A stretch of DNA of 12,144 bases from Candidatus Omnitrophota bacterium. Its GTDB lineage: Bacteria; Omnitrophota; Gorgyraeia; Zapsychrales; JANLHA01. Both the position numbers and the translations under genes were made by a program. Location: NCBI GenBank assembly GCA_024653845.1, contig JANLHA010000298.1, positions 1-12,144 of the forward strand. The letters are read 5' to 3'. Below the pieces are notes generated by a model. It searched no databases. It saw nothing but the letters and a program-made list of their open reading frames with translations, and was not told the DNA's origin. This document shows positions 109-1,049 of this stretch, piece by piece; the first letter of the stretch is position 1, and each line of letters begins with the position of its first letter.

Positions 109-384
109 TGGCTCCCCCGCGAGGACTCGAACCTCGGACCCAGTGGTTACGATCTGACTCTGATTACTCAGAGAGTCGGACTTTCTCTTCGCCCAACTTA
201 GGGGCGGCGGGTGTAAAGTCTCTGCACTTGCCCTCCGTCACAAATTATGACGAATGCTAGCTCAGGATTGTCCCAATATTTAAATTAGGATTTCCCTGAC
301 TTAGCCCGCTTTTCACTTCGATGTTTCCACCGAAGGCTGCTAACCATAAACAGCCACTTGCTCTACCGACTGAGCTACAGGGGA
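109..384 (-). tRNA. tRNA-Asn(GUU) interrupted by a group I intron
   Basis: The 5' exon is 384-350 (35 nt) and the 3' exon 149-109 (41 nt), giving a 76-nt mature tRNA with an encoded CCA (111-109). The acceptor stem TCCCCTG/CGGGGGA has one U.G pair and discriminator G73, as in bacterial tRNA-Asn. The D arm reads GCTCAGTCGGTAGAGC. The joined anticodon arm is AGTGG-CTGTTAA-CCACT, giving anticodon GUU after U33. The T arm is CGAGG-TTCGAGT-CCTCG. The intron falls between U35 and U36, so the anticodon does not exist until splicing. The 5' exon closely resembles E. coli tRNA-Asn. The other two tRNAs in the window do not encode CCA. Splice junctions are fixed by P1 and P10 pairing. Confidence 0.95.
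150..349 (-). ncRNA. Self-splicing group I intron (IC3-like), 200 nt, in tRNA-Asn
   Basis: A complete group I fold can be drawn. P1 is exon GGCUGU with intron GCAGCC (340-335), leaving the conserved U.G at the 5' splice site. P10 pairs UGGUUA in L1 (346-341) with the first six 3'-exon bases UAACCA. P2 (334-328/323-317) has a GAAA loop. P3 is GCGGG (309-305) with CCCGC (211-207). P4 is CAGG/CCUG (298-295/266-263), P5 290-284/277-271, P6a 254-248/240-234, and P8 205-202/194-191. P7 is GAGACU (222-217) with AGUCC (182-178), with the typical bulged A221. P9 has an inner GUAA-capped stem (171-168/163-160). The last base is G150, the expected terminal G. The block CAATCCTGAGC matches my recollection of cyanobacterial tRNA-Leu introns, hence IC3. 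There is no room for a homing endonuclease. Confidence 0.93.
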
Positions 385-449: not shown

Positions 450-1049
450 TCACTCAATCACCCGCCGAGAAGACATCGATAACGCGAGTGTCGAAGCATC
501 GGCATATTCCACCGAACTTCCGACCGGAATCCCTAATCCAATCCGCGTGACCTTGACTCCCAACGGACGCAACTCTTTCATAATGTGCAATGCCGTCATT
601 TCACCTTCGGTATCAGGGTCCGTGGCCATAACCACTTCTTTGACACCCTTCTCTTGAATTCTTTTCATCAATCGTTCTAAACGCAAATCTTCTGGGCCTC
701 TTCCTTCCGTCGGAGAAATCGCACCCAAAAGAACATGATAAACGCCCCTATACATTCCGCTACGCTCGATAGCTAATAAATGTTTGTGATCCTCGACGAC
801 ACAAATTATCGTTTGATCACGGCCAGGATTTTCACAAATTTCACAAACTTCCTTCTCACTCAAATGGTTGCAAACCGTGCAGAGACGCATGCGTTCTTTC
901 AAGGCTAAAATGTTCTGACAAAAACTTTGTGTATCTTCCGGCGAAGTATTCAGAAACCAAAAGACCATACGCTCCGCGCTACGCCGCCCCACACCGGGCA
1001 GCTTCATCAAATGGGAAATCAAATTTTCGATCAATCGAGGATAACTCAT
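450..1049 (-). CDS. recR: Recombination mediator protein RecR
   Basis: 199 residues, the normal RecR length. RecR works with RecO (and RecF) to load RecA on SSB-coated single-stranded DNA at gaps. The helix-hairpin-helix DNA-binding motif LPGVGRRSAERM lies at residues 17-28. A zinc finger has C57, C60, C69 and C72. A Toprim domain starts near residue 82 (VVEDHKHLLAIE) and includes ATDPDTEGE at 142-150. The C-terminal GIPVGSSVEYADASTLALS segment (173-191) is the family's conserved end. It starts with ATG 61 bp after the dnaX stop on the same strand, the usual dnaX-recR pairing, but the small ybaB gene often found between them is absent. An AAGGA lies about 17 bases upstream of the ATG, so the ribosome site is weak and translation may depend on readthrough from dnaX. 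Confidence 0.97.
   Translation of the reverse strand: MSYPRLIENLISHLMKLPGVGRRSAERMVFWFLNTSPEDTQSFCQNILALKERMRLCTVCNHLSEKEVCEICENPGRDQTIICVVEDHKHLLAIERSGMYRGVYHVLLGAISPTEGRGPEDLRLERLMKRIQEKGVKEVVMATDPDTEGEMTALHIMKELRPLGVKVTRIGLGIPVGSSVEYADASTLALSMSSRRVIE

Follow-up and report, generated by a model that had tools for sequence, protein, structure and literature searches.

This locus raises the question of which tRNA gene is interrupted here, by which kind of intron, and whether the bacterium has any other gene from which that tRNA could be made. The window, which is the whole stretch of DNA that was analysed (12,144 nucleotides), covers contig C101 from end to end; the contig belongs to genome G000, a draft assembly of a Candidatus Omnitrophota bacterium (2.07 Mb, 395 contigs, 87% complete). 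The interrupted gene and its parts are as follows.

384..109, minus strand: tRNA-Asn(GUU) gene, interrupted.
350..384, minus strand: 5' exon, tRNA nucleotides 1-35, ending in ...CUGU (from the tRNA fit and the match of the joined exons to G011).
150..349, minus strand: group I intron of 200 nucleotides, last base G (from Rfam RF00028, the U.G pair of P1, the terminal G and the tRNA fit).
109..149, minus strand: 3' exon, tRNA nucleotides 36-76, with CCA encoded (from the tRNA fit and the match of the joined exons to G011).

The Rfam family RF00028 (Intron_gpI) matched positions 359..157 of the minus strand with 80.6 bits (gathering threshold 50, E 1.3e-19) over model positions 1-253, which is its full length. 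This Rfam check bears out the group I intron that the initial annotation had read from the letters. The joined exons were called by ARAGORN as tRNA-Asn(gtt) of 76 bases. They are identical at 76/76 positions to the unsplit tRNA-Asn of G011 (L064), a genome of the same order as G000, and eight intact tRNA-Asn relatives exhibit 69 to 76 positions identical to them. The coordinates given in the initial annotation and its insertion point in the anticodon loop, between U35 and U36 of tRNA-Asn(GUU), are correct. The junction falls between two U bases where a one-base slide leaves the tRNA unchanged, and its assignment to 35/36 follows from the terminal-G rule.

The elements of the intron fold are listed below.

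335..340, minus strand: P1 internal guide GCAGCC, which pairs with GGCUGU of the 5' exon and has U.G at the cut.
341..346, minus strand: P10 strand UGGUUA, 6 bp with the 3' exon start UAACCA.
317..334, minus strand: P2 hairpin UUCGGUG-GAAA-CAUCGAA; double changes in 7/7 pairs, 94.4% paired.
207..309, minus strand: P3, 309-305 with 211-207; double changes in 3/5 pairs, 100% paired.
299-294 with 267-262, minus strand: P4, inside P3; 100% paired, almost invariant.
290-284 with 277-271, minus strand: P5, inside P3; double changes in 6/7 pairs, 78.4% paired.
Inside P3, minus strand: P6 region; P6b is weak, 59% paired.
179..220, minus strand: P7, the guanosine-binding helix, GACU 220-217 with AGUC 182-179; invariant, 100% paired.
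206-202 with 194-190, minus strand: P8, between the P7 strands; double changes in 3/5 pairs, 90.8% paired.
158..173, minus strand: P9 hairpin CUCUGA-GUAA-UCAGAG; double changes in 5/6 pairs, 100% paired.

The U.G pair in P1, the 6-bp P10, and the terminal G that had been described earlier are all present (GGCUGU/GCAGCC; UGGUUA/UAACCA). The guide reads GGCUGU and UAACCA, and the proposal that P1 and P10 are matched to the Asn anticodon arm holds. The covariation alignment consists of 14 introns of type B, the type to which the window intron belongs, of which 13 distinct rows were counted. Bases 343-336 (UUAGCAGC) and the final UUA of the P10 strand do not vary across these 14 introns. The eight helices comprise 45 pairs, where 91.7% of cells are paired and 27/45 pairs exhibit double changes, in agreement with the P3-P9 core of the initial annotation. 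The covariation score is 0.465 compared with 0.177 for shuffled alignments (0/500 reached it) and no more than 0.106 for slid helices, although the score is somewhat favoured because the helices were named on the window sequence, which is itself one aligned row. P4 and P7 are little informative for covariation because they hardly vary. The group I core of the window intron is complete and apparently intact.

Group I introns splice by a two-step guanosine pathway. The tRNA precursor would fold with P1 holding U35, and a guanosine held in P7 would attack after U35. The freed U35 would then attack after the terminal G while P10 holds U36 and aligns the 3' exon, and tRNA-Asn would be produced by way of a ribozyme. 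The 200-base RNA very probably removes itself from the tRNA-Asn precursor.

The taxonomic distribution of this arrangement was determined from several sets of genomes. The close set consists of 54 genomes (G000, its family, and its order). RF00028 matched in 27/54 of these genomes, and 5/35 of the matches had no locus and were left out of host assignment. For introns with long P1 insertions, the host was assigned after the 3' half had been fixed first. A tRNA-Asn intron with both exons is present in 18/54 genomes, G000 included (19 introns), and in G053 a tRNA-Asn 5' exon was seen by eye, followed by the contig end. Named genome contigs were also scanned with the split pattern, which gave at least 115 stretches, 80 of them listed. 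Among these 80 matches listed, at least 58 are split tRNA-Asn(GUU) genes with both exons. By label, the 58 resolved loci among the matches listed consist of 13 from Omnitrophota, 3 from Cyanobacteria, 1 from Melainabacteria, 1 from Marinamargulisbacteria, 1 from Bacteroidetes (L097), 1 from Simkania (L124), 8 from bacteria without a group label, and 30 whose names we take to be those of Patescibacteria groups; these labels were tallied by hand among the matches listed and are not usable as phylum shares. The Bacteroidetes and Simkania labels may be binning errors. The other 22 listed matches consist of five intact tRNA-Thr genes, joins reading CTT (3), TGT (3), and GAT (1), and ten where the 5' exon was not found. 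As judged from these predicted genes, introns at this one bond, 35/36, recur in the tRNA-Asn genes of several phyla, and the window gene is not an isolated oddity. It is highly probable, in our assessment, that the window holds a self-splicing group I intron of a recurrent family with a single site, 35/36 of tRNA-Asn(GUU), and that tRNA-Asn is made through a ribozyme.

The 106 extracted introns comprise 78 of type A and 28 of type B; the pattern did not pick up L217, a further tRNA-Asn intron, which stands outside this set. Type B introns exhibit a CAGAUCG-like tail and the guide UUAGCAGC. Type A introns, which are found in Patescibacteria, Cyanobacteria, and Omnitrophota, interrupt the same tRNA at the same bond as the window intron, but they have a tail that is mostly AAGUG and form a separate clade. 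The UUA P10 strand was not seen in type A, and every type A intron has a GCAG where a guide could lie, although so short a word also occurs by chance. A P10 of 6 bp was considered as a family trait and was rejected, where short type-B relatives have mostly 4-5 bp and type A introns 0-3, counts that are rough because, for many introns with an ORF or a long P1, the simple finder settled on the wrong guide. Split tRNA-Asn genes of both types occur together in G052 (L037, L062), where bin mixing is possible.

A FastTree tree was constructed from 117 intron cores, with seven duplicate cores removed beforehand. It exhibits a type B clade (26, 0.835), a clade of the Leu, Arg, and fMet introns (13, 0.91), and a type A clade (78, 0.948) in which introns with tmRNA, Phe, and Asp-like hosts are nested. 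On the type-A side lie an intron of tRNA-Phe(GAA) (L223, G400) and one in a tRNA with an unusual T-loop that was taken to be Asp-like (L240, G396). In three relatives (L045, L046, L058), the group I match interrupts, by eye, a tmRNA gene close to its 3' end, around the T-arm, and three other matches (L057, L060, L238) have 23S rRNA-like flanks by eye, the match of L057 spanning 646 bases.

The tree bears on how tRNA-Asn came to be the host. Type B may have reached tRNA-Asn separately from type A, from an intron of the Leu/Arg/fMet kind, in which case the site was colonised twice. The midpoint-rooted tree points this way by joining type B with the Leu/Arg/fMet introns (0.813), apart from type A (0.948), and the guide flank and 3' tail differ between the two types. 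However, the mean core distance between types B and A (0.455) is smaller than that from Leu/Arg/fMet to type B (0.496) or to type A (0.498), and the unrooted tree permits a single Asn lineage. We regard this double colonisation as possible but doubtful. The firmer statement of two independent invasions was rejected as overstated, where the midpoint root hinted at it but the distances do not. The retargeting from another tRNA that the initial annotation had expected is likewise not borne out, where the Leu, Arg, and fMet introns form a clade of their own and the unrooted tree allows one old Asn lineage.

Within the type B clade, the Melainabacteria intron L114 is the sister of L039 from G018 (0.845; inside a group of 16 at 0.999), and this position suggests that the type B intron was transferred between phyla.

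The ORFs of the relatives provide a possible vehicle for such movement. Long introns have their ORF in the P1 loop, downstream of the 5' splice site and ahead of the guide. An HNH-like protein was identified by motif search in 28/106 introns (27 distinct, 7 of them type B). Two of these HNH-like proteins were scanned against Pfam; the first matched HNH (PF01844) with 22.1 bits, barely above the cut-off of 21.4, and the second gave no Pfam match at E 0.001. The ORF of the cyanobacterial L140 matched LAGLIDADG_2 with 90.4 bits. In a small midpoint-rooted protein tree, 14 Omnitrophota HNH proteins from both intron types group together (0.817), with low inner supports, and 12 others, mostly Patescibacteria-labelled, are set apart (0.972). 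The proteins are arranged as if the HNH ORF had passed from one intron type to the other inside a phylum. Homing into intact tRNA-Asn genes is probable for the relatives that carry an ORF. For the window intron, the ORF list has no entry of 80 aa or longer, and a search of G000 with one HNH-like protein, run without a positive control, gave no relative. This ORF-less copy has probably lost the ability to move on its own. In L054, an HNH-like frame seems, by eye, to stop shortly upstream of an ORF-less split tRNA-Asn, outside the intron.

The neighbourhood of the locus is partly shared with other split and intact genes.

450..1049, minus strand: RecR-like ORF, the upstream neighbour, named by reading the translation.

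A recR-type motif lies at most 1.1 kb upstream of 13/106 split loci (one a duplicate) and 2/8 intact loci. The tRNA-Asn gene downstream of the recR-like motif has no intron (L065, L070), a type A intron (L035, L036, L051), or a type B intron (L031, L042, and others). At the contig end of the window, a 22-base motif occurs in two copies (51-72 and 76-97), with no further copy in G000 at up to 2 mismatches; to us the pair recalls transposon ends. Just upstream of four other split genes (L036, L051, L055, L056), extra and inverted copies of the tRNA start (ATTCCCCTG) were seen by eye, in a hairpin-like arrangement.

The initial annotation had tied essential splicing to this being the only tRNA-Asn gene. 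None of the 34 tRNA matches in G000 (draft, 87% complete) has the anticodon GUU. One of them, on C6, is weak (31.5 bits) with an ambiguous anticodon; the other 33 include no intact Ile, Trp, His, or Tyr tRNA, where a CAT anticodon in the list could conceal an Ile tRNA. The missing second tRNA-Asn is weak evidence because those four tRNAs are equally unlisted. In the close set, an intact tRNA-Asn pattern in addition to the split gene was found in G043 only among the 18 carrier genomes. Of 384 genomes sampled across the phylum, 61 matched the split pattern and 111 matched the intact one; three matched both (G043, G150, G374), and reversed control patterns matched 0/384 genomes. The shortfall of genomes with both patterns has p 5.4e-7 by Fisher's exact test, an optimistic value given that the genomes share ancestry and do not count as independent. 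Neither pattern was found in 215/384 genomes, the intact pattern being strict. Both exons were confirmed in 45/61 split-pattern genomes (17 + 28), and the other 16, including G150 and G374, are known by pattern alone; 28/30 phylum loci that were fetched gave both exons, and L193 and L212 did not.

It is plausible that the window gene is the only tRNA-Asn gene of G000, a reading for which the co-occurrence of both patterns in only 3/61 split-pattern genomes counts and to which the absence in G000 itself adds little. The window gene could instead be a dead interrupted copy, with Asn codons read by another tRNA-Asn that is missing from the assembly. The incompleteness of the draft, with its unlisted Ile, Trp, His, and Tyr tRNAs, would leave room for such a gene, as do the three genomes that carry the intact pattern too. 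However, the joined exons make a perfect tRNA-Asn, the core helices have been kept with compensatory changes, and 58/61 split-pattern genomes have no intact match, and we consider a dead copy quite improbable.

A tRNA-Thr(CGU) host, in which other intron boundaries would turn the anticodon of the joined loop into CGU, was rejected as barely credible. For 109-384, ARAGORN with introns allowed does give tRNA-Thr(cgt) and an intron of 200 bases, and in our own finder the CGT join reaches 75.3 where the GTT join reaches 77.3 (a score that includes the terminal-G and U rules). However, the junction chosen by ARAGORN departs from the one set by the U.G pair and the terminal G, and over all 76/76 positions the tRNA body is that of the unsplit tRNA-Asn of G011. 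ARAGORN without introns allowed makes no call at 109-384. Further split tRNA-Asn genes may be misnamed tRNA-Thr in databases, as by ARAGORN at this locus.

With tRNA-Asn as the host, a broader reading can be put together, towards which we lean by a small degree. An undescribed tRNA-Asn(35/36) intron family would have been spread across distant phyla by HNH endonucleases of the P1 loop and would have taken over the sole tRNA-Asn gene of roughly one in six sampled Omnitrophota, where the decoding of Asn would depend on a ribozyme and standard annotation would miss or misname the gene. The interest of the locus lies in the spread over several phyla and in how nearly always the split gene stands in place of an intact one.

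In the passages of the tRNAscan-SE 2.0 paper (PMC8450103) that concern such introns, fMet and Ile2 tRNAs are named as hosts and the program is described as not built to find them; the lone tRNA-Asn passage among those retrieved is mitochondrial. The retrieved portions of Hausner 2014 (PMC3984707) and Nawrocki 2018 (PMC6125680) contain no mention of Asn, from which unpublished status does not follow, and those of Seymour 2023 on Omnitrophota (PMC10066038) contain no mention of introns.

Introns of this kind prove common among uncultured phyla, and they could account for the apparent absence of tRNA-Asn in some genomes of those phyla. The loci also form a natural series that consists of the empty site, two intron types, and introns with and without an endonuclease ORF, partly at one syntenic locus. 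This series is suited to testing how a ribozyme becomes indispensable in translation.

Known hosts of bacterial tRNA group I introns include tRNA-Leu(UAA), tRNA-Arg(CCU), tRNA-fMet, and tRNA-Ile(CAU). Their introns are, like the window intron, small group I ribozymes in the anticodon loop, and examples from Leu, Arg, and fMet were recovered in the present scans. An endonuclease gene has reportedly been found elsewhere within a tRNA group I intron, with the anticodon region as its presumed target. That intron resembles the relatives identified here in having its own ORF, which in the tRNA-Asn introns is HNH-like and lies in the P1 loop, and differs from the window intron, which is without an ORF. 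We know of no earlier bacterial group I intron with a tRNA-Asn host or a 35/36 site. The window intron is of a known kind, with a host and a site that are new to us and that none of the passages cited above gives, and it would add one host tRNA and one splice site to our short list of bacterial tRNA introns. Compared with the tRNA-Leu, tRNA-Arg, and tRNA-fMet lineages, where the fitted sites are 34/35, 36/37, and 33/34, respectively, it lies at 35/36, has Asn as its host, and is placed outside their clade (0.91).
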